Shown: positions 7,061 through 50,617 of the stretch, one piece after another
Layout: each line of letters opens with the position of its first letter
How positions within the stretch are numbered: the first letter of the stretch is position 1
Assembly: GCA_946699065.1 (NCBI GenBank)
Contig: CAMPDV010000924.1
Span: 62,001 to 126,000, forward strand
Origin: Loxodes magnus
Lineage: Eukaryota; Ciliophora; Karyorelictea; Loxodida; Loxodidae
Direction of reading: 5' to 3'
DNA length: 64,000 nt
Program-made: the position numbers and the translations under genes
Notes under the pieces: model-generated
The model's input: the letters and a program-made list of their open reading frames with translations, nothing else
Told to the model about the DNA's origin: nothing
Database searches by the model: none

Positions 7061-8160
7061 CTTGCCATATTTCCTATTTTTTTTCTGTTTTTTTGCGGCG
7101 TTGTTAGTTTTTTCTCAGTTTTTATTTATTTAATTTTGTAGTTAGGTGTCTATTAAAGTCAATCTGCTTTTAAAGTAACTTTAGTATGACTTAAACTTGA
7201 TGCTTTTGCTAGAAATTCAAAGTAATATTTTATTTGAAGGTTAATCCTCTTCAGTTTTTATTCACTTTTTTTCCTTCACTATCTGTTTCTCTTTATAGTA
7301 AGGTATTTTCTCCTAATTTCCAACCTTGTTTTTACTTCTTAGCCTTTTAATTACTCACTTTATAGCTTTTTTTCTTAAGCCTTAATTTGTGCATGCCCTT
7401 TTTGATTATAGTTCATACATTTTCAAATTGATGGATGACTCAAGTAAGTACTTATACCTCCTTCGTCTAACTTATTTGGTATACTTTCTGCATCTTTGAT
7501 CTCCTTCAATTCTAAATAAATTTTCATTTTCCCATTGGCTCACATTGTACCTTTTACGGTTCCAATTTCTGTACATACTTTTTTTCCGTACTGATCCGAT
7601 TATTTTTTACCTGGTTCAAACTTGAATAAATGTTAAGTGCTCAATAAATCGGGTAGTTCTTAATGTTGTAGAATTCTCCCATATTTTTTTGCTCTGTTGG
7701 TATTAAAAAATTTCTATACTTCCATGTTTAATTACATCCGAATTCTGTGAGTTTTTCTTTATTTTTGAATCATATAGTAATTATTCCTTTCTGAAGGATA
7801 TTCACACTCTCAATATTTTTACCTTATTCTTAATTCAGATTTCTGAGAAATGCTTGAATGATTTCATTTCTTGCGTTTCTACTGGATTGAAACTTTGATT
7901 GTAGTTCTTTTCTTCTAAATTTTTTTTTCATAAGTAACTCCTAGTCTTTTAGCAGTTCCAAGCTTCGTATTCTCTTTCTGTTTTATTGCTTCTTTTCTCG
8001 TTCTTTTCTTCCTACATTTTAAAGATTTGCCAAAAGCTTTTTTCTTATTAAATGTTCTAAATTACCTACTTTTTTTGATAGGAAGCTTAGTTTTAAGAAT
8101 TCTGTTTCCTTTTTCTTAGTACTTTCCTCCTAGTATTTTAAAGATTTTGCAGCAGAGACG
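7060..8160 (-). pseudogene. LINE ORF1-like protein with degenerate CCHC knuckle
   Basis: The minus strand encodes a basic N-terminal region followed by a segment (GTVKGTMWANGKMKIYLELK) that resembles LINE gag-like ORF1 proteins. It ends at 7419-7378 in CMNYNQKGHAQIKA. A canonical knuckle is CxxCxxxGHxxxxC. Here the first Cys and the GH are kept, while the second and last Cys are Tyr and Ala. Such proteins normally coat the element RNA. Unit 2 has Tyr and Val at the same positions, so the loss is older than the duplication. Confidence 0.55.
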
Positions 8161-8415
8161 TTTTTCTTAAAAATAATATCAAAAATCTAATTAAGTAGTA
8201 AAAGCTATTTAATACCTTTATTAAATTTACCAAGTATTCCTGATCTAAGATTGGCGGCATGTGGATTGTGAGATTGATACTTTATATAATAGCTTAATAT
8301 TGTCTTTTAAATAATGTAATAATAGATATTTTAATTTATAATGGTTAGAATTTTTGATGCTAACTGTTATAAATTACCTTTATAAGCAGTTTTTGTAGTC
8401 TAAATAATAATAAAA

Positions 8416-9989
8416 ATGTAAGCGTTACCAAAATGCTTAATCTGCCTAGAAGATTACAACTTAACTAATGCTCTTCCAACTGTCTTACCTTGTGGACATA
8501 TTTACTGTGGTTTGTGTTTGAATACTCAGTACTGATTATAAGGCATAATGTAATGTCCTATTTGTTAAAAAGGATTCCATTTTAGATTTACTTAGCTTAA
8601 GAAAGTGATTTAATAAGAATGATATTTTAAAACTAATAATACATATAAAAGATTTAAGATGCTAGATAGAAATTAAAAGAAACCAAAAGCTAAATTATGC
8701 AAAAATCTAAAACCATTACAACCAAATTATCAAACATTACTAATACTCTCATAATACCATATACTAATATCATCCAATACACTACCATTAACCTACTTTT
8801 ATCTACAACTAATAACACTCAAATATTATACAATCATCCTAATTCCCTATTTACTAATATCTAAAACCAACTAAAATCTAATATAACATAAGCAGTCTAA
8901 CTATATTCCACTATATAACCAGCTTTAATACAAAAGCTATCTAAATTAACTTAAAGTTAAATCTAACTAATAAGATAGAAACTATAATACAATACTAAGT
9001 AAGAAAAATTAAATAATAGTAAAGATAAACTAACCTAACACTTTATATCATCCTATATTCACTTTTTTAATTATGGAATTTAAAAATTAAGTTTATTTAA
9101 TATTTAGACAGAGTAATTAAGATAAGTCTAAGTTTAAATTACAATTCCTGACGCATGTAAAAGTATAGAATATTAAAATAAGTTATATTTAATTGGAGGA
9201 TATAACTAAAATTAAAATAAAGGAATAAAAGAAACTTGATAATTTGATTTTGAAGGTAATAATATAAAATTTAGTGATCTAAATGAGGGAAGAAGTAGCT
9301 TTGGAATAGCAGCTGCTTAAAAACATCTTTATGTGGTTGGAGGATTTACTAATAATTATCAAGTTTTATAATCAGTAGAAAAGTAAAAGATAGGAAACTA
9401 AAGTAAATGATAAAACTGCTCTTAATTTCCATTTTTAATATTTTATTAAACTTTAGTAGTAGATAAAGATGAATAAAATATTTATTCTTTCGGAGGTGTA
9501 AAATAGAAAGAATAATACTCAAAAGAAATATTAAACTATAACATATAGAATGATAGATGGAGTAAGTATAATTTGAATCTTCCTGAAGCTGTTGCTTCTC
9601 CTATAGTTTCTTTAGTACCTTTTGTCATATTTGGAGGTGTAAAAAATTGATCTACGAATGAATATTCAAGAAAAATATATAAAAGAAACAAAGAATAATG
9701 AGAATAAAGTTAAATTTTTAAAAATGTTTATGCTTTAACGGAGATGAAAATAAGAAATAACTATGGATATGTTTTTGCTGTTGAAAAACCAAGAATTTCA
9801 ATAATGAGGATTGATTTAGAGAAATTGAGTTATAAAAGTATTGAAAGTAAGTGACTGATAAACATAATAATAATATCTATATTATTAATAGTATTTATAA
9901 TAAATATAATCTCATATGTAAAGAAGTAGTTTAAAGATCTATAATTAGTTAAATATGTTTCTAATTATTAAAATATTTAAAGAGTCTGA
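8416..9989 (+). CDS. RING finger-coiled coil-kelch protein with C-terminal membrane helix (TRIM-like layout)
   Basis: Translation from the ATG at 8416 gives a perfect C3HC4 RING: Cys7, Cys10, Cys26, His28, Cys31, Cys34, Cys47, Cys50, with a TGA-coded Trp40. RING domains of this type recruit ubiquitin-conjugating enzymes. At about 8620 the frame moves by one. The new frame stays coherent to the end: a Gln-rich helical region (about 8640-9050), kelch repeats with motifs such as KLYLIGGYN, HLYVVGGFT and NIYSFGGV, then a hydrophobic helix after a TGA at 9852 and a short basic tail. The TGA at 9987 is taken as stop and 9852 as Trp. Unit 2 differs by several percent without any net indel in 1.57 kb, and one difference changes a Lys codon to TGA. 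This suggests a maintained protein. Confidence 0.72.
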
Positions 9990-10332
9990 AATAAATAAAG
10001 AATCAAATTTTATCTAAATATATTTAAAAATCTATTATTCAAATATTATCATTATTCAGATACTAACATACAACTTAAAATATACCAAGACATATTCAAC
10101 ACAGTCAAAAAAGCAATCTTTAAATACATCCTTGTATTCGAATTATACAAGTACTACTTAGATTACACTATTAATTATCTAATCAAAACTATAATCAAAT
10201 AATCATTAAGCTATACCTATATCTATATCTAAATACTAATTAAGTCATCACTACTATCATCAAGTAATTATCTTCAAGTGTAAAATATATTATTTCCTTT
10301 AATCATTTAACTAACTACTGTATATACTTAAA
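9990..10332. other. Spacer, C-rich and G-poor on the plus strand
   Basis: No coding stretch is convincing. The two units differ here by substitutions and several short indels, including a loss of about ten bases in unit 2. This is the pattern of unconstrained DNA. Confidence 0.4.
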
Positions 10333-11344
10333 ATGTCACCTTGATATTTCAAAAATTTTTGAGACTTTCAACGCTTCAAATAATGAATATGGAGACGAGA
10401 TAGTGCCTTGAAGTACTTAACAAGGAATATCTGCTATAGTAAATAAAATAGAATCAAGTATATGATTTATCTCAAGGAAAGCATTCTAAGGTACAATTAA
10501 CTAATGGTGTTATATTGATATGAATTGAATGCCCTTGAAGCACATTATGGGTCTGAGGTTAAATAGTTTAATTTGAAAGTATTGATTATCTAAGTATAGG
10601 GTTTTGTAATTGGAATAAGGATATGAGTAATTAGATGGCTGCATACTATAATCCTTAGATAACTACATAATTGCAGTTTAAAATAATTGACATATAAAAA
10701 TGTAAATTTAAATTTGATACAGCTGCAACCATTTGATAGAATGCCTACTATACTGAATAATTTAAAAATCTATATTAATTTCCAGAATTAACTAAACAAA
10801 TCATATAGAAGAGAAATTATAAGTATATAAGCTCAGAACCTAATCATTAAATTTCCGAAAAGATCTTTAAGACCGTCATTTGCTTATTGATAGCCCTTAT
10901 TGCATCTATGAAGATTATGACACTTTTGAAGATGTAACTACTATTGAGACATAAGGGAATGACTATAGTATAAGATTTGAAATAAAAGTTTTATTCTTTA
11001 TAATTAAGTGTATATAAATATGTTTCCTAGTAGTAAAGCAGTAGAGATAGATTTAGAAATAAAAATATTACACCGATTGCTACTTGATCTAGTTAAAATA
11101 GAAGGATGTATAAATGTTGATAGGAAGTGATGAAACATTTAAATGTCTTTAATTGGAAGAAGAAATCTTACAATTAAAGATGTCCAAATATCTTTTTAGT
11201 TTAAATATTAATTTTGATCAATTGCTTAATTAAATTTTCTTACATTTCCTTCTTCTTTATGTTAAGAAACTAGTACGATTTTTTGATGTCTTAATTTAGA
11301 TTTTTTTAGATTTGCTTTCTTGCTTAGTGTTCTTTATGAGTTGA
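10333..11344 (+). CDS. Unidentified protein gene, several frames
   Basis: A frame from about 10336 reads HLDISKIFETFNASNNEYGD and on to QWCYIDMNW near 10530. Coding character then moves through a second frame (EAHYGSEVK) to a third (SIGFCNWNKDMSNQMAAYY and on to ELTKQII near 10800). A fourth segment reads LLIDSPYCIYEDYDTFEDV and ends in a Leu-rich helix before TGA at 11342. Each segment is protein-like and in order, so this is probably one gene with short introns or shared frame breaks. No family is recognised. From about 10480 on, both units are practically identical. Confidence 0.45.
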
Positions 11345-15227: not shown

Positions 15228-15308
15228 GACACTATGGCCGAGTGGTTAAGGCGACAGACTTGAAATCTGTTGGGTTCTCCCGCGCAGGTTAAAATCCTGC
15301 TGGTGTGG
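15228..15308 (+). tRNA. tRNA-Ser (anticodon TGA), degenerate
   Basis: The D arm (TGGCCGAGTGGTTAAGGC) and the anticodon arm ACAGA-CTTGAAA-TCTGT are canonical for serine and give anticodon TGA, which reads UCA. A long variable arm (TTGGG/CCCGC) and a T stem GCAGG/CCTGC are present. The T loop is TTAAAAT instead of TTCRANY, which damages the polymerase III B box, and the first acceptor pair is G-G. A T-run follows at 15309. It may be a pseudogene or a weakly expressed tRNA. Confidence 0.72.
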
Positions 15309-15340: not shown

Positions 15341-17201
15341 TATTGTAGTGAAACAATTAATTATAGATGCCCTTGTAGCCTAGGAGTCTATAACTACTTT
15401 TAGAATGAATAAAGTAATTTCCAAATTAAGATTGTAAACTAAGCAAAATAACTAAATGATTTGTAAAATAAAGGTAAAAAGAATTAATTAAAAGAAGTTG
15501 CTAAAGAAATATACGATAAAACGAGAGTAGTGCTAGTTATAGTTTATGAAGATGATGCCAAAATAATACTTAATTAGTTTTATGAGTTAGGAGCAAGAGA
15601 AGGCGATTTTGTCTTTATATCTTTTTCATGGCTTACATTAAGCTTTATTGATTAAGATGCTGAACAAATGAAATGTAAGAAGTTATTAAAGGAGCAATTT
15701 AATTTGAACCTGCAGGAATTTAAGGAGAATTTGGATAAGAAATAAAATAATAGTTTTAGAATTATTTTGGAATTTAGTAGATAAATAGCTTATACTGAAT
15801 TTGATGGAGTACTATTAGGAGCTTATGCTTTATAAAGTTTAATAAGGATCAAATTATACAGATTAATCAAATCTTTAGAAAGCAATAAGAAACGTAAAAT
15901 TTATCGCCTCTACAGGAAAAGTAAGGATCTATTATAACTCCAACGACAGAACCTCAATTCAATGAATAATTTAGAACTATAGGAAAAACAATTAAAGCCA
16001 ATGATAAATTTAGAATATAGGATTATATTGTCTCACTTGTAATGTCGTTTTTAGTTTCAATTAATAGTTTATGTGAGGAGACGGAAGTACTGGGATCTTT
16101 TAAGATAGCTGATAGTTATCATGTCCTTTTAAAGAAAGGGAAAGAAAATAATTAAAAAATGGATAAGTAATTAAGTATGCTATATTAATCACAATGGTAT
16201 TTATATAAGTGGTGGTTTCTTTATTGGAAATAAAAGCAAATTACAATTATGAGTTTGTTAAGCTTGAAAGAGTATTTGTAATGTCTACTTGAGACTTTAT
16301 TTATATCTTGCATTTATTTTTATATTTCTTATAGACTGTATCAGTAGGAGCCTCTAGCTAGGGAAATTTGGTATAGTTTATTATAAGCTGCGTTAAATTA
16401 GACTTTGTAAATATTTTAGTTGATTCGAATAATAAGCAATACTCTAACTATATAGTTGCATGTATTTTTGCTGTTTTATGAATGATATGCTTTTTATCTA
16501 TCCTACTTAGGCTTGAGTTTTCAAGATGAACAATTTTCTATTTAATAGGAAGCGTATCTTATTATATAGGGCCTTTCTTAACTTATAGCTTTTTTCTCCC
16601 TTTAAATTTTATGGATCTGTTTATTTGCTTGGAAGGAGTAGATTGAAATCACGATGGAAAAATACAATTTTGAGAATCTTTTGATTATAAAGATTGCAGC
16701 TGAAAATGCTGATAAGGAGTTCATCTTAAGCTTGTAATTTGATGTTGAATCTGCTTTTTAATTTATTAAATTTATGGAACTAAAACAGTTCTGATGTGGA
16801 GCTTTATGGATGGTTAATGAAAGTAAAATATAAAAAAAGTGACTTAGTAATTTTAAGAGTCCTGCTAATAGTATTATGTTCCTTTAACATTGTTTTATAA
16901 AAGTAGAATAAAATAATACATGCTGTGCTTTATCTGTTAGCTATGCTTTTTCTTTTCTATTATACTTATAAGTCGAATCCATGTAACTATCCGAAATTGG
17001 GAATTGTTATATTTCTTTCTTATAATATTAATCATGCTGTAGTTTAAATTTTTAGAATATCACTTTCTTCATTTTATATGAAAGAATTTATATAAGTTTA
17101 TAGGCTGCTTAATTACTAGTTTAGTAGCCTATAAATTTCAAACCAAATATAAAACCCCTATTACTATTTTCGAGTTGGACGAAACATATTTATTCAGATG
17201 A
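15341..17201 (+). CDS. Receptor with PBP1/ANF-receptor-like domain and multiple TM helices, N-terminally truncated
   Basis: The frame begins within the ectodomain (KTRVVLVIVYEDDAKIIL, then GAREGDFVFISFSWLT), as in receptor-family ligand-binding regions. One +1 slip occurs at about 15826-15840. The second frame then continues unbroken to TGA at 17199: AIRNVKFIASTGKVRIYYNS (the typical close of the ligand domain), a Cys-containing linker, then about seven hydrophobic segments, for example YAILITMVFIQVVVSLL and IVACIFAVLWMICFLSILL. Many Trp residues are TGA. A full-length relative at 28256 has about 400 further N-terminal residues and a signal peptide, both missing here because the tRNA lies immediately upstream. 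It should be a membrane receptor of class C GPCR-like layout; the ligand is unknown. Confidence 0.66.
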
Positions 17202-17678
17202 TCATTCTAATGCAAAAATAGAATCTACTTTACTTTTACATTTACAACTAATTAACCTATCTTAATTTTAGAAAATACTTAGCAGAGAAGTAAGGATTAA
17301 GGAATAAGACTTATGAATTTAGATAAAATTATTAATATAATTTAAACATTATAGCAATATACCTATTACCAACTAACTACTTTTAGTTACTTCTTTATTT
17401 CATCTATTCATACTTTTAAATCTATTTAACACAAAATATCCAAATTATACTAATGTAAAACACCAGAAAACTTACAGAGTCATTAATTGCTTTATTAAAC
17501 CAGAAATACTCAAGGATAATATTGGCTACTTAAATTAATGTAACTATTTAAGTTTATAAGCATTAAAGCTTTAAACAATTCCAGACTTATTTTTAAATTT
17601 AAATATTTTATATATTTATATTATTATTATTATTATTATCAACTATAAGTTTTATAAATGTTTGCTTTCATTGGAATT
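17202..17678. other. Spacer with short ATT microsatellite
   Basis: This convergent intergenic region holds an (ATT)n tract at about 17621-17638, which is shorter in unit 2. If the TGA at 17199 were read as Trp, some 20 further residues could be added to the receptor, but they are not protein-like. Confidence 0.4.
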
Positions 17679-18173
17679 TCAGCCAGATCCAGCTATCTAT
17701 TTTTATTGAATTTGGATTCTTCGACCATTTTTTTATGTGGATAGTTACAATCCTTAACCATCTCACTTAGATCTGTTCTGTGTCAATTATTTTTTGTAAA
17801 CTCTATTGTTATTAAAAAAAATCTTGTTTACTCTATTTAGGTCCTTTAATTCTCTTACTTTTTAAGTCTTTTGCAATCTATGCAGTTTTATATTAGATAT
17901 TGCAAAGAATCGCAATATCTACTCCTCTTTAACTTATATTTCTGTTTCTATTTCGGAATAATAAAACTCTCAAATTTTTCCAATCTTTTGTTATTTCAAT
18001 TCTTTAAATTTTTATTAGTAGTTACCTTATTAGTTAGGATATAATTCTTAGTTTCTTCAGTGATAATTGGAATTTCCTTAATTTAATTGCTTTAGGATTA
18101 GCATCACAGTTTTTTCTGCTAAGACTTTGCTTTAAGCAAGTTTTTTCCATAAATAAGTCATTTTTAAGGACAA

Positions 18174-18188
18174 ATACTCAATATGAGT
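18174..18188. repeat. Left direct repeat of the insertion (15 bp)
   Basis: ATACTCAATATGAGT occurs here and again at 19017-19031, bracketing the inserted DNA. Unit 2 has one copy of a near-match. This is best read as a target-site duplication. The repeat itself is an imperfect palindrome (ACTCA-ATA-TGAGT). Confidence 0.85.
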
Positions 18189-18202
18189 AGAAAAAAAAAA
18201 AG

Positions 18203-18997
18203 ATGTTAAGCAAGCAGTAGAAAATTGAAGCAAAGAAAGCCAGAAAGCTTGCATAAAAGCAAATAGAACATCAAATAAAAGAACTTACCGACCCTGACTC
18301 TCCTCCATCGGTAAAAGGAAAGCGCCTTGAAGGGAATACTAAGGAGCAGGAATCTGATACAATCGAATCATTAAGCAATCAAATTTGACTTATGAAGAAA
18401 AATTTCTAAAAGCAGGATGAGGTAATATTTAATCTCGCGGAAAAGATAAGGGAACTCCTAAATACAATCGAAGAACTTAATTAGGAAACAAACTGTTTAA
18501 GGAATCAACTGATACAAAGTCAAGTAGTGACTAAAGAACAACTCTGACTATAATCCTAATCTAGATCTAACAAAGTTGACAGAATGGACATTGAATAAGA
18601 ATAAAAAACATAGAACTAATAGAATTAATAAGAATTGAAATAAGAATAGAATCTAATAGCTAGAATAGAAAAGATAGAGAGCCACTTATATCCAGAATTC
18701 AAGCCTTAAATCACCAAATATAGAAGATGCTGGTTCTGCCACTCAAATAACCATTTACTGAAGACTTGCCAAAGCTTTAAGTAACTAAAGAGAAAGGAAG
18801 ATCAAAAGACGTGAAGATAACTTACAAGACTATACGTAACTCCATAAGGAGTATTCAAGAAGAAGATTTCCAACGGAACAAGAAGATTATCATAGTGGTT
18901 ACCTCCCACTTAAAAAACTTGGTCGTGGTTTCCGCCACGTTAAAAAACTGGCAGCGAGAACCTGGTTTAGATTCCAGGGAACGCAAACTTTTTTTGA
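18203..18997 (+). CDS. Intact coiled-coil/CCHC zinc-knuckle protein of the insertion (264 aa)
   Basis: From the ATG at 18203 the frame is continuous to TGA at 18995. Residues 1-50 are basic, with KGKRLEGN near 40-48. Residues about 60-170 form a long Gln/Glu/Leu-rich coiled coil. The zinc knuckle is C176-W-F-C179-x4-H184-x4-C189, the CCHC type of gag and LINE ORF1 RNA-binding proteins. Residue 204 is a TGA that both close paralogues also carry before Arg, so it is read as Trp, not stop. The tail contains WLPPT and WSWFPPR. There is no reverse transcriptase, integrase or protease signature. Stopping at codon 204 would be the alternative end. Confidence 0.72.
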
Positions 18998-19016
18998 CTT
19001 TTAGTTTACTATATAT

Positions 19017-19031
19017 ATACTCAATATGAGT
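19017..19031. repeat. Right direct repeat of the insertion (15 bp)
   Basis: This is identical to 18174-18188. It directly precedes the resumed coding sequence of gene A. Confidence 0.85.
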
Positions 19032-19282
19032 CAATTCTCTTATTCTATCTGAAAGAATGTAAATTACCTCGTACTGTTTGCTGAGAATTTTCTTCATTTT
19101 ATCATAATGTTTAGATATGGATTCATTTCCTGTTCTATTAATGAAGTTCCTTACTAATTTCCTTACAATCGTTTGCCTTGAAAATATGAGGAAGGTTCCG
19201 ATGGCTTTTGCTTTTTCTCTTCAAGTCTAGCTTATCTCTTAATCTTTCTTTGCTAAATTTTTGATGCCTTAATATTCTCCAT

Positions 19283-20169
19283 TTCATGCCAAGCTTTTAT
19301 GTTTATATAAATTACAAATGAAAAAAATTAAGAATAATGTTCTTTTAAAAAATTTCATATTTACAAAAAAATTAATCTTGTACAATTTATTTTTTTCTTT
19401 TTATTATTTATCTAATAAAATATCTTAATTTTTTAAAAAGATAATCATATTCCATTTTATTATATTTAAAAAGCACTTAGTAGAGCAATTAGCTTGGTCT
19501 AAATATAATTATCTTTAATCTAGGAATTTAATATTCTAATAAGAGTAAATTTTAACAATTGTAAGTATATTTAATTTAATAGCAAAGAATCATTTTTTAA
19601 TACTTTTTCATAATAAATAAATAAATAAATTATTTTTAGTATTTCTATCTTTAAGCATCATTATCAACTATGATGATATAATTTAATTTTTAATTTATTT
19701 TAGTTTGTTTTATTATGATTTTCTTTTTAAAAATAAAAATGTGGTTTTTAAATTTAATTAGATATTTTGCTTCTTACAAGCTATGTCATTTCTATTATTC
19801 AGTTAAAAAATTTTCTTAATTTTGCTATATTTCTAAATTTATCATATAAGCAAATAAATTTTTCATTGAAGGAATATATTTTTAATTTTGATTTATTTTT
19901 AATAAAGGATTTCAAACCTTTTTTATTAGATTAAAGCTATTTTTATGAATCTGCTTAAATGAGGAATTTCAAAATTTTTCTTTCATACTTTTATACAATT
20001 ATTTCGTATACCATTTTTATAAACTTAAAATTATTTAATATAATAATAGATATTAAAATTTTATAATTAATAGCAGTGAAATAAATCATAGACGTATTTA
20101 TAAATTTTCTAAATTATTATTATTATTATTTAACTAAATTTAAAATAAATATTTGAGTGCCCTGAGTTT
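19283..20169. other. AT-rich spacer between CCHC-family genes A and B
   Basis: No coding stretch is evident. It holds short tandem runs (AAATA near 19612-19632 and ATT at about 20116-20130). The units differ by a few percent and by tract lengths. Confidence 0.4.
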
Positions 20170-20949
20170 TCATATAGGTATCAGCTGACAAATTTTTTTT
20201 CGTGGTTGTATTCCACGACCTTTTTTATAAGTGGGTAGTTACCACAAAGGAATCTCTTAATTTCTTATGAATAATTTTTATTTATAAAATCCGAGTTCAG
20301 TAATTCAAAGTTTAATTAGATTTCTTCAGGTTCTTTGCTCTTCATTGTGCTTGAATAACCTTCATTCTTTGCAATGTCTTAGTAGGTGATATTTAGATTG
20401 ACAGTACCAACAATTTTATATTACTTCTCAACTTTCTTCTTTGGATAAATCTTACTTTCTAATATCTCAATTATTTTGCTTAGGTTTGAATCAATTTGTT
20501 CTTAACTTTATTTTTCTTAATGCACCTGTTAGTGTAGATCTTCTTCTATAATGATTCTTTGTGATTATTTGAAGTTGGATTAAGACGTTTCGTAAAGTTA
20601 ATTTTCTGCTACTAAACTGTTTTTTATCAGTTAACTTTTAAGAATTAGTAATTCGTTATTTTAATCTTCTAAGCAGTTCACTAGCTCCCGGATTTTTCTC
20701 CTTGATTAAAGAAAATTTCTTCATATTTCCCAATTTATGCTTTCATTTTTTCAATTTAATTTTAGAGTAATTTATTATTTTGAACTCTAGGATTAACTTA
20801 TTCAGTAAGGCCGACCATTATTTTTCCCTTTGAAGATAAGCTAGACTCTCGATTCTGTCTTTGTTTTTTTAGTTCCAAAGTAGTCGCTTGCTTGCTTTCT
20901 TTCTTACTTTTCTTTTTCAATTCTTTGAAAGACGGATGTTCTACTCCAT
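20170..20949 (-). pseudogene. Coiled-coil/CCHC-family gene B, one-base frameshift in unit 1
   Basis: Its length to the TGA at 20172-20170 is 780 bases, close to the insertion ORF. The sequence VEHPSFKELKKKSKKESKQA is followed by a coiled coil with GEKIRELVNCLEDQNNELL, closely similar to the insertion protein. The zinc knuckle CWYCQSKYHLLRHC is at 20412-20371. The C-terminal part keeps RTWRNLIKL, with Trp as TGA, and WQLPTYKKGRGIQPR. Immediately before the knuckle unit 1 has lost one A, which breaks the frame. Unit 2 has the extra A and an open frame there. The start is uncertain because the ATG at 20949 is out of frame with the first clear peptide. Confidence 0.62.
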
Positions 20950-21030
20950 TTTTTTAACTATTATAAATTATCTAAATTATTAATAATATTAATAAAAAAC
21001 TAAATTAAGTGTTTGAGGCTTTGAGGAATC

Positions 21031-21707
21031 TCAACCTCATTTCCACTGCTAACCAGTGATCACTCCTGGAGGTTTAAAATAAAAATTCGGGTCATCTAGT
21101 TTTTTCGGAGTTCTGGAACTCGATTGGAAAATTCTCTTTCTATAGATTCTTCCGTCCATCGTCACATAAATTCTTGCTAATTCTCTTCATACTTATTCGC
21201 TGTTTCTCTTCATCTGTTCTTTGTATATCTTGCATCTCTTGTAATTATGGAATCTTGATTAGCACAGGTAACATCTCTTGATAATCCTTCTAATATTGGT
21301 TGCTTCTATTTGCCTATCGTCTTCTACTTCCATTTTTATTTCTTAGATTAAAGGTTCTATTCTTTTTTCCCAAGTTGCTTTATTTCGTTTTCTTATTTGA
21401 CTAATCTTTCTTCAGTATTTTAACTTTTTGCTAATAATTTTTTGTTTTCTTGCTTTAATATTTTGACTTCTTCTTACAGAATTCGAGCAGATTTCAAAAG
21501 AATTTCAATTAGTATTTATTCTTCATTTTCTGTTTTTGCATTATTGGATTTCATATAGCTACTTGGTCTTGATTTAGTAAGAAAGTAAATATTTTATTAT
21601 TCGTTTGCTTCTGTTTCTGTTTATTTAAGTTCTTATTTTATTTAAGATTGTCTTTGATTTTCTACTGTTGTAGGTTAAGAAAATGATTATTTGACTAAAG
21701 AAGACAT
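21031..21707 (-). CDS. Coiled-coil/CCHC-family gene C
   Basis: The ATG at 21707 opens MSSLVKQSFSQPTTVENQRQ. A coiled coil follows (RILQEEVKILKQENKKLLAK), and one frame change at an A-run near 21365 is shared with unit 2. Then come IEPLIQEIKMEVEDDRQIEA and the knuckle CYLCQSRFHNYKRC at 21273-21232. After it, VWRELARIYVTMDGRIYRK aligns with the insertion's TWRQLTRLYVTPQGVFKK, including the TGA-coded Trp. The end near 21031 is a TGA and approximate. The gene lies about 80 bases upstream of gene B on the same strand. Its role is unknown; RNA or DNA binding is inferred from the knuckle. Confidence 0.58.
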
Positions 21708-36008: not shown

Positions 36009-38707
36009 GAGGCGACGTTGAATAGAAGTAGTCTTAGAGCTCAGCCTTTAAATCCTTATCTCTAATTTTCTTTATTAGTTACACTCTATTTGAGACGTTA
36101 AGAGATTTAATGCTTTAACCTAGCAGATAAACTTTCCTCTCAGTTTTCTTTAAAATTCTTCATATTTTTTTCGTTTATTAATATCCATGGTGCATATTTT
36201 CTCTACTTAAATCATTTTTATAATCCTTTTAAAATGCTGTTTAAGTTTTCTTAATTAATTTCATCTAGGAAAATATTTAATTGATTTTTCCTATTTTTTT
36301 TTGATTTAGTCAAAATTTTATTCTTGCTTCTTGTCTCATTTTAATATAATTATCAATTTCTTAGCATCCTTATCTAATTAGATATTTTACTTATTTCGCC
36401 TGCTATTAGAATCTATTCTTAATTTTATTGCTTCTGTTGTATATTAGTACCTTCTCATTTAATTTATTACAAAGCCATATATAGTTTTGGTCGCTTCTTA
36501 GATGTGTTCTGATCATTTGTCATAGTATGCTTAACTATCTAAATTTTCGAATTCGCTAAGATCTATTTTCTCGAATCATTATTTGAATCTCTCTTGAATC
36601 TTCTATAGCTTTAATTTTTGAAAGCTTGTCCTTTTAATTTATGGGCTTTTTCTATAATCTTCCGCAATTTTTATCTTTATTTGCCTGACTAATAATCTTC
36701 TATTGATCTCTATTAAAAGAATTTTGCGCTGATAATGTTAGGCGTAATATATTGATCCATTAAGAATATTCTATTTTGAATTTTCCTTTCCCTTATGTTG
36801 TGATGAAGGCTGGATCTTTAAATCTAAATGATAATCTCTCATCAAGTTAAGTAAGTATTAGCCTGCATTATTCTGCTCATACGGTAAAAATTGGGAAATA
36901 TGCGCATTAAAATCCCCTAATATTAAAATTTATAATATTTTGCTACTTGCTGCTATTTTGTATTATTATAGACTTTCTTAAAAGCTTATAAGTTAATCAG
37001 AGTAGAATCTTGTAGTGCATATATGTTTATCAAAGCCAGCCGATCATTAAGTGTTAAACCTATTAATCTTTCTCTCTAAAATAATTCCACTTGATTGAGA
37101 TATGCAATGTCCAATACTTTGGTTCTGCAGGTAATTCCATCTTTTATATAAAATGCTACTCCTTTGCTGTGTTTTGTGTTCAATTTTACTATTGCTCTGA
37201 ATCCGTATATGTAAGGCATTTCAGCAGTTTGATCTCCAAACATTTCTTAAATTGCCATAAAACTTACCTATTTTTCACACATAAACTTCTTTAATTCTTT
37301 CTTGTTTGATTTTATTTCTTTGACATTTTCTGTGCCTATGTTTAATTCTGTCTATTTTATAATACTAGTATTTCCTTGTACTTCCTATTTTTCTTGATCC
37401 AACTATCCTGCATTTTTAGCTTCCTCTTCTTTAATAGAATGAAACCAAAATCTTTTTTTAAGTTTACTACTTTTCCTGTACTTATGTCTTCATCTTTTCT
37501 ACTTGATAGTATCTTCCTTGCCATTGTATTTTATTTTCTATCTTTTTTGAGACAGCTTTGTGTTTATGCATACTTCCTTCCTGTCACTTTTTTCTAGTTT
37601 TTTCAGTTTTGTTTTGCCATACTTCCTATTTTTTTCTGTTTTTTTGCGGCGTTGCTAGTTTTTTCTCAGTTTTTATTTATTTAATTTTGTAGTTAGGTAT
37701 CTATTAAAGTCAATCTGCTTTTAAAGTAACTTTAGTATGGCTTAAACTTGATATTTTTGCTAGAAATTCAAAGTAATATTTTATTTGAAGGTTAATCCGC
37801 TTTAGTTTTATTCACTTTTTTCCTTCGCTATCTGTTTCTCTTTATAGTAAGGTATTTTCTTCCTAATTTTCAACCTTGTTTTTACTTTTTAGCATTTTAA
37901 TTACTCACTTTATAGCTTTTTTTCTTAAACCTTAATTTATGCATGCCCTTTTTGATTATAGTTCATACATTTTCAAATTGATGGATGATTCAAGTAAGTA
38001 CTTATACCTCCTTCGTCTAACTTATTTGGTATACTTTCTGCATCTTTGATCTCCTTCAATTCTAAATAAATTTTTATTTTCCCATTGGCTCACGTTGTAC
38101 CTTTTACGGTTCCAATTTCTATACATACTGTTTTTCCGAACTACTATATATGGATTCTACCTGGTTCAGACTTGAATAAATGTTAAATGCTCAATGAATC
38201 AAGTAGTTTTTAATGTTGTAGAATTCTCTTATATTTCTTTGCTCTGTTGGTATTACAAAATTTCTATACTTCCATGTTTAATTATTTCCGAATTGTTTGA
38301 GTGTTTCCTTATTTTTGAATCATATAATAATTATTCCTTCTTAAGGATATTCGCATTCTCAATATTTTCACCTTATTCTTAATTCAGATATCTGAGAATT
38401 GCTTGAACGATTTCATTTCTTGCCTTTCTGTCGTACTGAATCTTGGTTGTAGTTCTTTTCTTCTAAATTTTTTTTCATAAGTAACTCCTAGTATTTTAGC
38501 AGTTCCAAACTTCGTATTCTCTTTCTGTTTTTTTGCTTCTTTTCTCGTTCTTTTCTTCCTACATTTTAAAGATTTGCCAAAAGCTTTTTTCTTATTAAAT
38601 GTTCTAAATTACCTACTTTTTTTGATAGGAAGCTTAGTTTTAAGAATTCTGTTCCCTTTTTCTTAGTACTTTCCTCCTAGTATTTTAAAGATTTTTTGGC
38701 AGAGACG
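36009..38707 (-). mobile_element. LINE remnant, unit 2 copy
   Basis: This is the counterpart of 5461-8160, with the same degenerate ORF1 knuckle (Tyr for Cys, Val at the last position), the same endonuclease motifs including GDFNAHI near 36900, and the same left truncation without reverse transcriptase. Confidence 0.68.
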
Positions 38708-38962
38708 TTTTTCTTAAAAATAATATCAAAAATCTGATTAAGTAGTAAAAGCTATTTAATACCTTTATTAAGTTTACCAAGTATTCCTGATCTAAGATTG
38801 GCGGCATGTGTATTGTGAGATTGATACTTAATATAAAAGCTTAATATTGTCTTTTAAATAATGTAATAATAGATATTTTAATTTATAATGGTTAGAATTT
38901 TTGATGGTAACTGTTATAAATTACCTTTATAAGCAGTTTTTGTAGTCTAAATAATAATAAAA

Positions 38963-40536
38963 ATGTAAGCGTTACCAAAATGCTTAATCTGCTTAGAAGA
39001 TTACAACTTAACTAATGCTCTTCCAACTGTCTTACCTTGTGGACATATTTACTGTGGTTTGTGTTTGAATACTCAGTACTGATTATAAGGCATAATGTAA
39101 TGTCCTATTTGTTAAAAAGGATTCCATTTTAGATTTACTTAGCTTAAGAAAGTGATTTAATAAGAATGATATTTTAAAACTAATAATACATATAAAAGAT
39201 TTAAGATGCTAGATAGAAATTAAAAGAAACCAAAAGCTAAATTATGCAAAAATCTAAAACCATTACAACCAAATTATCAAACATTACTAATACTCTCATA
39301 ATACCATATACTAATATCATCCAATACACTACCATTAACCTACTTTTATCTACAACTAATAACACTCAAATATTATACAATCATCCTAATTCCCTATTTA
39401 CTAATATCTAAAACCAACTAAAATCTAATATAACATAAGCAGTCTAACTATATTCCACTATATAACCAGCTTTAATACAAAAGCTATCTAAATTAACTTA
39501 AAGTTAAATCTAACTAATAAGATAGAAACTATAATACAATACTAAGTAAGAAAAATTAAATAACAGTAAAGATAAACTAACCTAACACTTTATATCATCC
39601 TATATTCACTTTTTTAATTATGGAATTTAAAAATTAAGTTTATTTAATATTTAGACAGAGTAAATAAGATAAGTCTAAGTTTAAATTATAATTCCTGATG
39701 CTAGTAAAAGTATAGAATATTAAAATAAGTTATATTTAATTGGAGGATATAACTAAAATTAAAATAAAAGAATAAAAGAAACTTGATAATTTGATTTTGA
39801 AGGTAAAAGTATAAAACTTAGTGATCTAAATGAGGGAAGAAGTTTTTTTGGAATAGCAGCTGCTTAAAAATATCTGTATGTGGTTGGAGGAATTACTGAT
39901 AATATTAAAGGTTTATAATCAGTAGAAAAGTTAAAGATAGGAAACTAAAGTAAATGATAAAACTGTTCTTAATTTCCATTCTAAATAGTTTATTAAAATT
40001 TAGTAGTAGATAAAGATGAATAAAATATTTATTCTTTTGGAGGTGTAAATTAGAAAGAATAATACTTAAAAGAAATATTAAAGTATAACATATAGAATGA
40101 TAGATGGAGTAAGTAAAATTTGAATCTTCCTGTAGCTGTTGCTTGGCCTATAGTTTCTTTAGAGCCTTTTGTCATTATTGGAGGTGTAAAAAATCTATCT
40201 ACGAAAGAATATTCAAGAAGAATATATAAAAGAAACAAATAATAATGAGAATAAAGTTAGATTTTTAAAGATATTTTAGCTTTAACGGAGATGAAAATAA
40301 GAAATAACTATGGATATGTTTTTGCTGTGGAATGACCAAGAGTTTCAATAATGAGGATTGATTTAGAAAAATTGAGTTATAGAAGTATTGAAAGTAAGTG
40401 ACTTATAAACATAATAATAATATCTATATTATTAATAGTATTTATAATAAATATAATCTCATATGCAAAGAAGTAGTTTAAAGATCTATAATTAGGTAAA
40501 TATGTTACTACTTATTAAAATATTTAAAGCGTCTGA
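38963..40536 (+). CDS. RING-coiled coil-kelch-TM protein, unit 2 copy
   Basis: This matches 8416-9989 base for base in length. All eight RING ligands are kept. The helical part is almost identical to unit 1, while the kelch part differs by about 5 percent. Differences include a Trp-to-Leu change and a Lys-to-TGA (Trp) change, with no net indels. Its TGA end is at 40534. Confidence 0.7.
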
Positions 40537-40856
40537 AATAAATAAAGAATCAAATTTTATCTAAATATATTTAAAAATCTATTATTCAAATATTATCATT
40601 AGATACTAACTTAAAGCTTATAACATACCTAAATATATTTAGCACAATCAAAAAAGCAATTTTTAAATATATCTTTATATTCAAATTATACAAATACTAC
40701 TTAGATTACTCAATATTTATCTAATCAAATAATCATTAAGCTATACCTATACCTATATACTAATTAAGTCATTACAACTATCATCAAAGCAAATCTTGAA
40801 ATTTAAAATACATTATTTCCTTTAATCATTTTAACTAATTACTGTATATACTTAAA

Positions 40857-41868
40857 ATGTCACCTTGACATTTCAAAATTTTTTGAGACTTTCAACGCTT
40901 CAAAAACTTAATATGGAGACGAGTTAGTGCCTTGAAGTACTTAATAAGGAATCTCTGCTGTAGTAAATAAAATAGAATCAAGTATACGATTCATCTCAAG
41001 GAAAGCATTCTAAGGTACAATTAACTAATGGTGTTATATTGATATGAATTGAATGCCCTTGAAGCACATTATGGGTCTGAGGTTAAATAGTTTAATTTGA
41101 AAGTATTGATTATCTAAGTATAGGGTTTTGTAATTGGAATAAGGATATGAGTAATTAGATGGCTGCATACTATAATCCTTAGATAACTACATAATTGCAG
41201 TTTAAAATAATTGACATATAAAAATGTAAATTTAAATTTGATACAGCTGCAACCATTTGATAGAATGCCTACTATACTGAATAATTTAAAAATCTATATT
41301 AATTTCCAGAATTAACTAAACAAATCATATAGAAGAGAAATTATAAGTATATAAGCTCAGAACCTAATAATTAAATTTCCGAAAAGATCTTTAAGACCGT
41401 CATTTGCTTATTGATAGCCCTTATTGCATCTATGAAGATTATGACACTTTTGAAGATGTAACTACTATTGAGACATAAGGGAATGACTATAGTATAAGAT
41501 TTGAAATAAAAGTTTTATTCTTTATAATTAAGTGTATATAAATATGTTTCCTAGTAGTAAAGCAGTAGAGATAGATTTAGAAATAAAAATATTACACCGA
41601 TTGCTACTTGATCTAGTTAAAATAGAAGGATGTATAAATGTTGATAGGAAGTGATGAAACATTTAAATGTCTTTAATTGGAAGAAGAAATCTTACAATTA
41701 AAGATGTCCAAATATCTTTTTAGTTTAAATATTAATTTTGATCAATTGCTTAATTAAATTTTCTTACATTTCCTTCTTCTTTATGTTAAGAAACTAGTAC
41801 GATTTTTTGATGTCTTAATTTAGATTTTTTTAGATTTGCTTTCTTGCTTAGTGTTCTTTATGAGTTGA
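40857..41868 (+). CDS. Unidentified protein gene, unit 2 copy
   Basis: This is the counterpart of 10333-11344, with the same segments in the same order and TGA at 41866. From about 41000 on, only isolated differences from unit 1 were seen. Confidence 0.43.
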
Positions 41869-45754: not shown

Positions 45755-45835
45755 GACACTATGGCCGAGTGGTTAAGGCGACAGACTTGAAATCTGTTGG
45801 GTTCTACTGCGCAGGTTAAAATCCTGCTGGTGTGG
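45755..45835 (+). tRNA. tRNA-Ser (anticodon TGA), further degenerate copy
   Basis: It is identical to 15228-15308 except in the variable arm, where CTCCCG has become CTACTG, so its stem can no longer pair well. The T loop TTAAAAT and the G-G acceptor mismatch are shared. It is likely a pseudogene. Confidence 0.6.
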
Positions 45836-48198: not shown

Positions 48199-48962
48199 TC
48201 AGCCAGATCCAGCTATCTATTTTTATTGAATTTGGATCTCTCGACCATTTTTTTATGTGGATAGTTACAATCCTTAACCATCTCACTTAGAGATCTGTTC
48301 TTTGTCAAATATATTTTTGTAAACTCCATTGCTATTTATAAAAAATCTTTGTTTGCTCTATTTAAGTCCTTTAATTCTCTTGCTTTTTAAGTATTTTGCA
48401 ATCTATGCAGTTTTATATTAGATATTGTAAAGAATTGCAATGTCTGCTCCACTTTAACTTATATTTCTGTTTCTATTTCTTTTTAATAAAGCTCTCAAAT
48501 TTTTCCAATCTTTTTGTTATTTCAATTCTTTAAATTTTATTAGTAGTTACCTTATTAGTTAGGATATCATTCTTAGTTTCTTCAGTGATAATTGGAATTT
48601 CCTTAATTTAATTGCTTTAGGATTAACACCACAGTTTTTTTCTCTAAGGCTTTGGTTTAAACAAGTTATTTCCATGAAAAAGTCAGTTATAAGGATAGTT
48701 ACTTAATATGAGTCAATTCTCTTATTCTATCTGAAAGAATGCAAATTATCTCGTCCTGTTTGTTGAGAATTTTCTTCATTTTATCATAATGTTTGAATAT
48801 GGATTCATTTCCTATTCTATTAATGAAGTTCTCATAATTTCCTTACAGTTGTTTGTCTTGAAAAGATGAAGAAGATTCAGATGGCTTTTGCTTTTTCTCT
48901 TCAATTATAGCTTATCTCCTAACCTTTCTTTGATAAATTTTTGATGCCTTAATATTCTCCAT
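48199..48962 (-). CDS. Coiled-coil/CCHC-family gene A, uninterrupted copy
   Basis: The ATG at 48962 runs to a TGA at 48201-48199, 764 bases, the family length. The insertion point of unit 1 corresponds to about 48700, where one near-copy of the 15 bp site is present and the protein reads straight through (RELTHIKQLSLQLTFSWKQL). The knuckle is damaged as in unit 1 (Ser and Tyr in place of Cys and His). It shows the state before insertion. Confidence 0.55.
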
Positions 48963-49850
48963 TTCATGCCAAGCTTTTATGTTTATATAAATTACAAATG
49001 AAAAAAAATTAAGAATAATGTTCTTTTAAAAAATTTCATATTTACATAAAAATTAATCTTATACAGTTTATTTTTATTATTTTTATTATTTATCTAATAA
49101 AATATCTTAATTTTTTATAAAGATAATCATATTCAATTTTATTGTATTTAAAAAGGACTTAATAGAATAATCAGCTTAGTCTAAATATAATTATCTTTAA
49201 TCTAGGAATTTAATATTCTAATAAGAGTAAATTTTAACAATTGTAAGTATATTTAATTTAATAGCAAAAAATCATTTTTTAATACTTTTTCATAATAAAT
49301 AAATAAATTATTTTTAGTATTTCTATCTTTATGCATCATTATCAACTATGATGATATAATTTAATTTTTAATTTATTTTAGTTTGCTTTATTATGATTTT
49401 CTTTCTAAAAATGTAAATGTGATTTTTAAATTTAATTATATATTTTGCTTCTTACAAGCTGTGTCATTTCTATTATTCAGTTTAAAAATTTTCTTAATTT
49501 TGCTATATTTCTAAATTTGTCATATAAGCAAATAAATTCTTCATTGAAAGAATATATTTTTAATTTTGATTTATTTTTAATAAAGGATTTCAAACCTTTT
49601 TTATTAGATTAAAGCTATTCTTATGAATCTGCTTAAATGAGGGATTTCAAAATTAATCTTTCATACTTTTAAACAATGATTTCGTATACTATTTTTATAA
49701 CCTTAAAATTATTTAATATAATAATAGATATTAAAATTTTATAATTAAAAGCAGTGAAATAAATCATAGATGTATTTATAAATTATCTAAGTTATTATTA
49801 TTATTATTATTTAACTAAATCTAAAATAAATATTTGCGTACCCTGGGTTT

Positions 49851-50617
49851 TCATATAGGTATCAGCGGAAATTTTTTTTTCGTTGTTGTATTCCACGATT
49901 TTTTTTATAAGGGATGATTACCACAAAGGAATCTCTTAGTTTCTTATGAATAATTTTTATTTATAAAATCGAGTTCAGTAATTCAAAGCTTATTTAGGTT
50001 TCTTCAGGTTCTTTGATCTTCATTGTGCTTGAGTAGCCTTCATTCTTTGCAATGTCTTAGTAGGTGATATTTAGATTGACAGTATCAACAATTTTTATAT
50101 TACTTCTCAGCTTTCTTCTTTGGATAAATCTTTCTTTCTAACATTTCACTTTTGCTTAGGTTTGAATCAATTTGTTCTTAACTTTATTTTTCTTAATGCA
50201 CCTATTAATGTAGATCTTCTTTTATAATCATTCTTTGTGATTATTTGAAGTTGGATTAAGACGTTTCGTAAATTTAATTTTTGTCACTAAACTGTTTTTT
50301 ATCAGTTAACTTTTAAGAATTAGCAATTCGTTATTTTAATCTTCTAAGTAGTTCATTAGCTCCCGGATTTTTTCTCCTTGATTAAAGAAAATTTCTTCAT
50401 ATTTCTCAATTTATGCTTTCATTTGTTCAATTTAATTTTAGAGTAATTTATTATTTTGAACTCCAGGATTAACTTATTCAGTAAGGTCGACCATTATTTT
50501 TCCCTCTGAAGATGAGCTAGACTCTCGATTCTGTCTTTGTTTTTTTAGTTCCTCATCAGTCGTTTGCTTTCTTTCTTTTCTTTGTTAATTCTTTGAAAGT
50601 CGGATATTCTACTCCAT
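49851..50617 (-). CDS. Coiled-coil/CCHC-family gene B, unit 2 copy
   Basis: This is the counterpart of 20170-20949. Before the zinc knuckle the A lost in unit 1 is present, so KKAEKQYKNCWYC reads in frame (knuckle 50090-50049). The Trp of CWYC is TGA here and TGG in unit 1, a silent difference under the proposed code. The 3' part has more substitutions than unit 1. Confidence 0.6.

Follow-up and report, generated by a model that had tools for sequence, protein, structure and literature searches.

Positions 18189–19016 (+ strand) of the window, by which we mean the whole 64,000-nucleotide stretch of Loxodes magnus DNA that was analysed, are occupied by an inserted element of 828 bp. It belongs to a family that is mobile, generates its own target-site duplications, has fixed ends, has undergone a recent burst and keeps a coding frame under constraint, while encoding no reverse transcriptase. 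We consider it very likely that the element is a sub-kilobase non-LTR retroelement without a reverse transcriptase of its own, which carries a single ORF1/gag-like protein and is copied by target-primed reverse transcription through the endonuclease and reverse transcriptase of a LINE acting in trans. From the evidence laid out below we infer an RNA intermediate, the role of a LINE family labelled E as the helper, and both RNA binding and cis-preference of the element protein.

The insert is bounded by two copies of the 15 bp direct repeat ATACTCAATATGAGT (18174–18188 and 19017–19031), 843 bp apart, and uninterrupted sites have this sequence in a single copy. The 5′ leader (18189–18202, + strand) contains a run of 11 A residues, the terminus of the element reads ACTTTTAGTTTAC and a (TA)n tail follows (19010–19016, + strand); no inverted repeat pairing both ends of the insert was found. 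Units of ∼30 kb make up the window; around the insert, unit 1 matches unit 2 at 91.6% identity, and unit 2 provides the uninterrupted site at about 48614–48794. The insert is nested in an older relative of itself and oriented opposite to it. This relative (− strand, 17622–19179) is split into the pieces 19179–19035 and 18019–17622, and in unit 2 it lies in one piece, without the insert, at 48880–48162 (− strand). The direct repeats, the uninterrupted site in unit 2 and the nesting had all been proposed in an initial annotation of this DNA, and all three are borne out. It had also described the neighbouring relatives as carrying frameshifts or damaged knuckles. A second older relative is present on the − strand of both units (20115–20761 in unit 1 and 49796–50582 in unit 2), and in the unit 2 copy, read from 50582 to 49796, the knuckle is intact although the frame is broken. 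Each unit also contains a RING-type zinc finger frame and a Kelch-repeat frame in the karyorelict code (7700–11200 and 38200–41800, + strand), as well as a tRNA-Ser gene with anticodon TGA (15228–15308 and 45755–45835, + strand).

With the joined flanks of the insert as the query, the junction is read through at 38 of the 40 scored places, which indicates an insertion into a single unit of a repeated segment; the remaining two rows are both halves at the window insert itself. Identity is 88–98% in 25 of the rows and 79–84% in 13; the latter group may represent dispersed copies of the older relative rather than units. The closest uninterrupted site is 98% identical over 185 bp, so the insertion occurred after the split from that unit. 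The region around the insertion site recurs at 88–98% identity at at least 25 further places on many contigs and forms a large repeated segment, which is possibly tandem on contig C924.

A single ORF of 264 codons plus a terminal TGA (18203–18997, + strand; coding part 18203–18994, terminal TGA 18995–18997) fills the insert. It is open only if TAA and TAG are read as glutamine and three internal TGAs (codons 62, 115 and 204) as tryptophan. According to the main text describing the 706 Mbp macronuclear assembly of L. magnus, this organism uses NCBI table 27, with UGA as the sole stop and also as a tryptophan codon (PMC11441545). The code is supported from inside the family by the exchange of TGA and TGG at the knuckle tryptophan (TGG in the window copy, TGA in 11 and TGG in three of 19 aligned relatives) and by TGAs that recur at codon 62 in 18 of 20 relatives, at codon 115 in 12 of 18 and at codon 204 in 15 of 19. 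Like TGA and TGG, TAA and CAA interchange at the same residues between relatives. Given the karyorelict code, the single 264-codon ORF of the initial annotation is confirmed.

Codons 54–95 of this frame (18362–18487, + strand) are predicted to form a heptad coiled coil, with hydrophobic residues at 11 of 12 core positions; as the best window of a scan, it was equalled in 0 of 2000 shuffles. Codons 176–189 (18728–18769, + strand) spell a CCHC knuckle of the form C-x2-C-x4-H-x4-C. Judged from this architecture, the protein would be of the ORF1-like type and is likely to bind RNA. A Pfam scan of the frame detected no reverse transcriptase or transposase, its one match being to AAA_18 below threshold (E = 0.12), and together with the comparison of the two ends this agrees with the earlier statement that reverse transcriptase, transposase and terminal inverted repeats are not visible. 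Nine family members gave only weak unrelated Pfam matches (best E = 0.0027, in one member), and a search of solved structures with the element protein returned no match; neither search lends support to an RNA-binding fold. The element thus differs from an autonomous LINE in that it encodes neither reverse transcriptase nor endonuclease, its frame taking up the element. Within the 3′ part of the ORF (18895–18949) a 25 nt sequence is repeated at 30 bp spacing, and each copy can form a small hairpin.

Across the assembly that was searched (705.7 Mb in 7843 contigs), the young subfamily has 105 5′ ends and 105 3′ ends at ≤2 mismatches, and reversed end patterns, used as a control, gave 0 matches genome-wide. 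A listed 3′ end could be assigned to 90 of the 100 listed 5′ ends, and 76 of these 90 pairs have the same spacing, 777 bp. Of the 38 sites whose flanks differ, 36 have target repeats of at least 12 bp (range 10–20 bp, median 15), against 1.1% of 1406 mismatched flank pairs; two of the 38, L074 and L076, have an identical target repeat and come from a single tandem contig. Over the 38 sites the A-run before GATG is 5–14 long, and the TA tail measures 4–28 nt, a count that may extend into the target repeat. In the young copies the ATG stands one G after the A-run at the extreme 5′ end, which would leave the RNA with next to no 5′ UTR.

The majority sequence is matched fully by 20 of these 38 copies and with at most one difference over 806 bp by 33, the other five differing at 2, 2, 4, 6 and 10 sites. 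The best 40 copies from the DNA search are gapless over the whole 792 bp core at 99.6–100% identity, these 40 copies and the 38 sites being the best matches and hence biased towards intact young copies. Such near-identity to the majority speaks for a recent burst, and some variants shared between young copies suggest that more than one copy acted as a source. On contig C4605 (17135–27370) four young copies lie within ∼10 kb, and the two examined share a target repeat, which suggests that a segment with the insert was amplified. The initial annotation had described a young and minimal mobile element and had named many copies with their own repeats and conserved ends as support for mobility; the end counts, the target repeats at most sites, the one ORF without reverse transcriptase and the small number of differences between copies are all in agreement with that description.

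The protein search extends the family well beyond the young group. It gave 144 matches from 143 scored candidates (the best of 10932 at first look), ranging from 86–90% identity in the young group, where stops are counted as mismatches, down to 48%. Twenty divergent relatives chosen from these by protein score are 50–76% identical in protein to the window copy, except for one at 92%. All 20 start A-rich and 15 have an intact ATG at that point, while 17 retain a recognizable form of the 3′ end ACTTTTAGTTTA and a tail, which L106, L111 and L112 do not. Young copies have tails of the TA type, and those of older copies are often TAA-like. A count of 3′ ends of the older type gave 231 at ≤3 mismatches and 0 in the control. 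First-look counts (1120, 3403, 10932, 2075 and 1926 in the various searches) are loose, and 40–150 candidates were scored in each.

The frame of these relatives is constrained. Compared with the window copy, dN/dS is 0.34–0.78 in all 20 and ≤0.5 in 14, and in 19 divergence is highest at third codon positions. Because selection of the relatives was by protein score and many of them have private indels, the constraint applies to the lineages that replicate, not to every single copy; many older copies are frameshifted, as is expected of dead copies. Among the coding variants of the young group 16 of 27 are nonsynonymous, compared with 79% expected at random, and these are too few to judge.

In the mechanism that we propose, the A-run that immediately precedes the ATG would be the start of the element RNA, and a LINE protein would bind the LINE-like terminus at its 3′ end. 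This LINE protein would nick AT-rich DNA and prime on the nicked DNA, and the priming would leave the TA tail and a duplication of ∼15 bp. Probably, the element protein coats RNA and acts preferentially on its own copies; this would account for a frame that is kept under selection. The variable A-run start and the variable (TA)n tail are as expected of target-primed reverse transcription, and target duplications of variable length (36 of the 38 sites) together with a variable simple-repeat tail are features of non-LTR elements. Truncation at the 5′ end is typical of LINE products. Although frequent in non-LTR elements at large, it is nearly absent here, as seen from the equal end totals of 105 and the 90 of 100 listed ends that are paired; a short RNA would fit this near absence. 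According to the end counts, several of the partial protein matches are not 5′ truncations but copies with both ends and an internal indel.

The hairpins predicted for the 3′ end of the RNA pair in 82.9% of cells, against 31.6–41.1% in slid controls, a comparison that is biased by the derivation of the structure from the window copy. No measure of covariation of these hairpins was better than in shuffles.

The genome is rich in LINE parts (3403 first-look candidates for the RVT_1 profile, 150 scored) and contains many endonuclease families (2075 first-look candidates for Exo_endo_phos_2, 150 scored). Five LINE families, labelled A–E and each read in part, were used for the comparison of termini. 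They end in differing hairpin-like sequences followed by TTTA, TTAA, T-run or TTTAA tails, as if each LINE reverse transcriptase recognized its own 3′ end. Whole 3′-end identity did not reveal a helper among families A–E, and the termini of A–D have at most 7 nt in common with the end of the element. LINE E ends in AAACTCTTTTAGTTTA followed by a TTTAA-type repeat and shares with the element an exact 3′-terminal 11-mer, CTTTTAGTTTA (18998–19008, + strand), which in both stands directly before the simple tail. Outside the flagged family, exact matches to this 11-mer in 360,894 bases of retrieved sequence are confined to two contexts, L116 (LINE E) and L100, the latter being a family member that the family flag had missed. 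A match of this length, wherever it stands, occurs in 22 of 5000 random 60-mers from the window, which overstates chance because the window contains copies of the family. Since five families were compared and the motif was seen before being tested, the 11-mer link is only moderate evidence; on this footing it supports mobilization by a LINE in trans, with LINE E as the best helper candidate and the most likely source of the enzymes.

LINE E is abundant and young, with 647 3′ ends (≤2 mismatches; 0 in the control) and 40 scored copies at 92–100% identity. Eight of these scored copies are located ∼3.3 kb downstream of endonuclease matches (contigs C1643, C6969, C349, C2267, C1567, C471, C940 and C689). 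The endonuclease match and the ends are the parts seen, and the reverse transcriptase of LINE E is presumed. The 2.5 kb leading up to and into the endonuclease region (C1643, 51350–53850) contains Q/N-rich, coiled-coil-like sequence, and no CCHC motif is present there in the three forward frames. The window itself contains a segment at about 11130–11215 (+ strand) that resembles an old LINE E 3′ end, with the 11-mer at one mismatch and a similar hairpin region.

Several other leads were followed on the LINE side. Matches of the insert DNA to LINE E (best E = 9e-5) and to A, B and D (best E = 0.003) are short and AT-rich and were not accepted as homology. A pattern that excluded the T-run of the family itself gave 21 matches (two in the control), 13 of which form one group, GAAACCCTTTTAGTTTATTAT; in three contigs (C254, C920 and C1172) a young copy is found ∼13.7 kb from this group on the same side, and such recurrent spacing means that the group may be a duplicated segment. 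On contig C561 a family-type tail lies 4.8 kb downstream of an endonuclease match, but as we estimate ∼0.1 such pairs by chance, this one was given no weight. On C20 (2028–7877) and C5131 (5395–26349) reverse-transcriptase matches recur with a period of 2532 bp, which is 2504 bp over part of C5131, as in tandem arrays of a LINE piece.

The same mechanism would also serve an element of different origin, namely a strict analogue of HAL1 that arose by deletion from a full LINE and kept its ORF as ORF1. We regard this origin as possible, but tend to doubt it. LINE A and B both carry CCHC proteins of their own upstream of the endonuclease, and only five LINE families were examined, in part, in a genome with many other endonuclease families; furthermore, the 143 scored protein candidates are the best of 10932, so that a distant parent LINE would not show among them. 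Against it, BLAST finds no similarity between the ORF and the upstream regions examined, either in A, B and D (best E = 1.2) or in E (best E = 1.4). A further reading takes the two elements as a split LINE system of two components, a pol element (LINE E) and a gag element (the insert family), that travel as separate mobile RNAs with a common 3′ recognition end, each of which may need the other. This would explain why the frame is kept across subfamilies, yet we think it unlikely.

The remaining explanations were rejected on the behaviour of the frame and the ends. SINEs are short, lack a reverse transcriptase, have a LINE-like 3′ terminus and are mostly full length. The insert family resembles them in being short, nearly always full length and LINE-like at its terminus, and a SINE-like element would hold its open frame by accident; an accidental frame is hard to reconcile with dN/dS below 1 in 20 of 20 relatives, third positions most diverged in 19 of 20, and swaps of TGA with TGG and of TAA with CAA at the same residues, and we consider this reading very unlikely. 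The constrained 264-codon frame sets the element apart from SINEs; Rfam gave no match at the gathering score in 17000–21500, a result that speaks neither for nor against a SINE. If LINE enzymes had made retrocopies of a host gene, these would likewise have target repeats and a coding frame, but the 3′ end here is a TA tail with no poly(A), the same ends recur in relatives at 50–76% protein identity, and some of the variants shared by young copies suggest that there was more than one source, which makes such retrocopies highly improbable. A DNA transposon or similar cut-and-paste unit would suit the compact form, the one ORF and the nearly constant length, but is hardly credible for ends without an inverted repeat, a frame without a transposase in Pfam, repeats that vary from 10 to 20 bp and a simple tail that varies as well; DNA transposon domains are also scarce in the survey reported for L. 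magnus in the main text of its genome paper (PMC11441545).

The non-LTR retroelement mobilized in trans, our preferred reading, has counterparts elsewhere. HAL1 (half-L1) of mammals is summarized as having ORF1 only, with target-site duplications and dependence on the reverse transcriptase and endonuclease of a full LINE (PMC5322556, citing Bao and Jurka 2010). The element described here similarly has an ORF1-type protein alone, target-site duplications and no reverse transcriptase. It differs in that HAL1 is a truncated L1 with poly(A), whereas the element has a TA tail, is below 0.9 kb and has no parent LINE among the families examined. HeT-A of Drosophila, in the account of PMC3776773, encodes only a Gag-like protein and no reverse transcriptase. 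In this it is like the element, but HeT-A goes to chromosome ends only, while the element, flanked by target duplications, occupies internal AT-rich sites that are scattered. In L. magnus itself, the LINE families rnd-1_family-27 and -19 are given in the main text as 5–6 kb long with endonuclease and reverse transcriptase (PMC11441545). They are of the non-LTR type too, and families A–E likewise end in a short simple repeat; unlike them, the element has neither enzyme.

In the main text of the same paper, SINE, non-autonomous, ORF1 and zinc are absent as terms, most L. magnus repeats are described as unclassified, so that the family may sit there unnamed, and extensive DNA elimination is reported as not detected (PMC11441545). 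The element family is likewise not described in the open-licence literature that we searched. The earlier suggestion of an undescribed family therefore stands at the level of the family, but not at that of the kind of element, as ORF1-only and Gag-only elements are known from HAL1 and HeT-A. What is new is the combination of a length below 0.9 kb, no parent LINE found, older subfamilies with the same layout, a constrained frame in which each of the three stop codons can be read as sense, and a candidate helper with only the terminus in common.

It is unusual and puzzling for an element without a reverse transcriptase to retain a protein gene, as a parasite of enzymes should need no protein of its own. 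Should the split system be true, the element would be the carrier of a nucleic-acid-binding subunit and not a mere parasite. With ∼105 near-identical copies, older subfamilies, coding constraint and an abundant candidate helper, L. magnus offers a case in which the purpose of such a protein is open to direct test.
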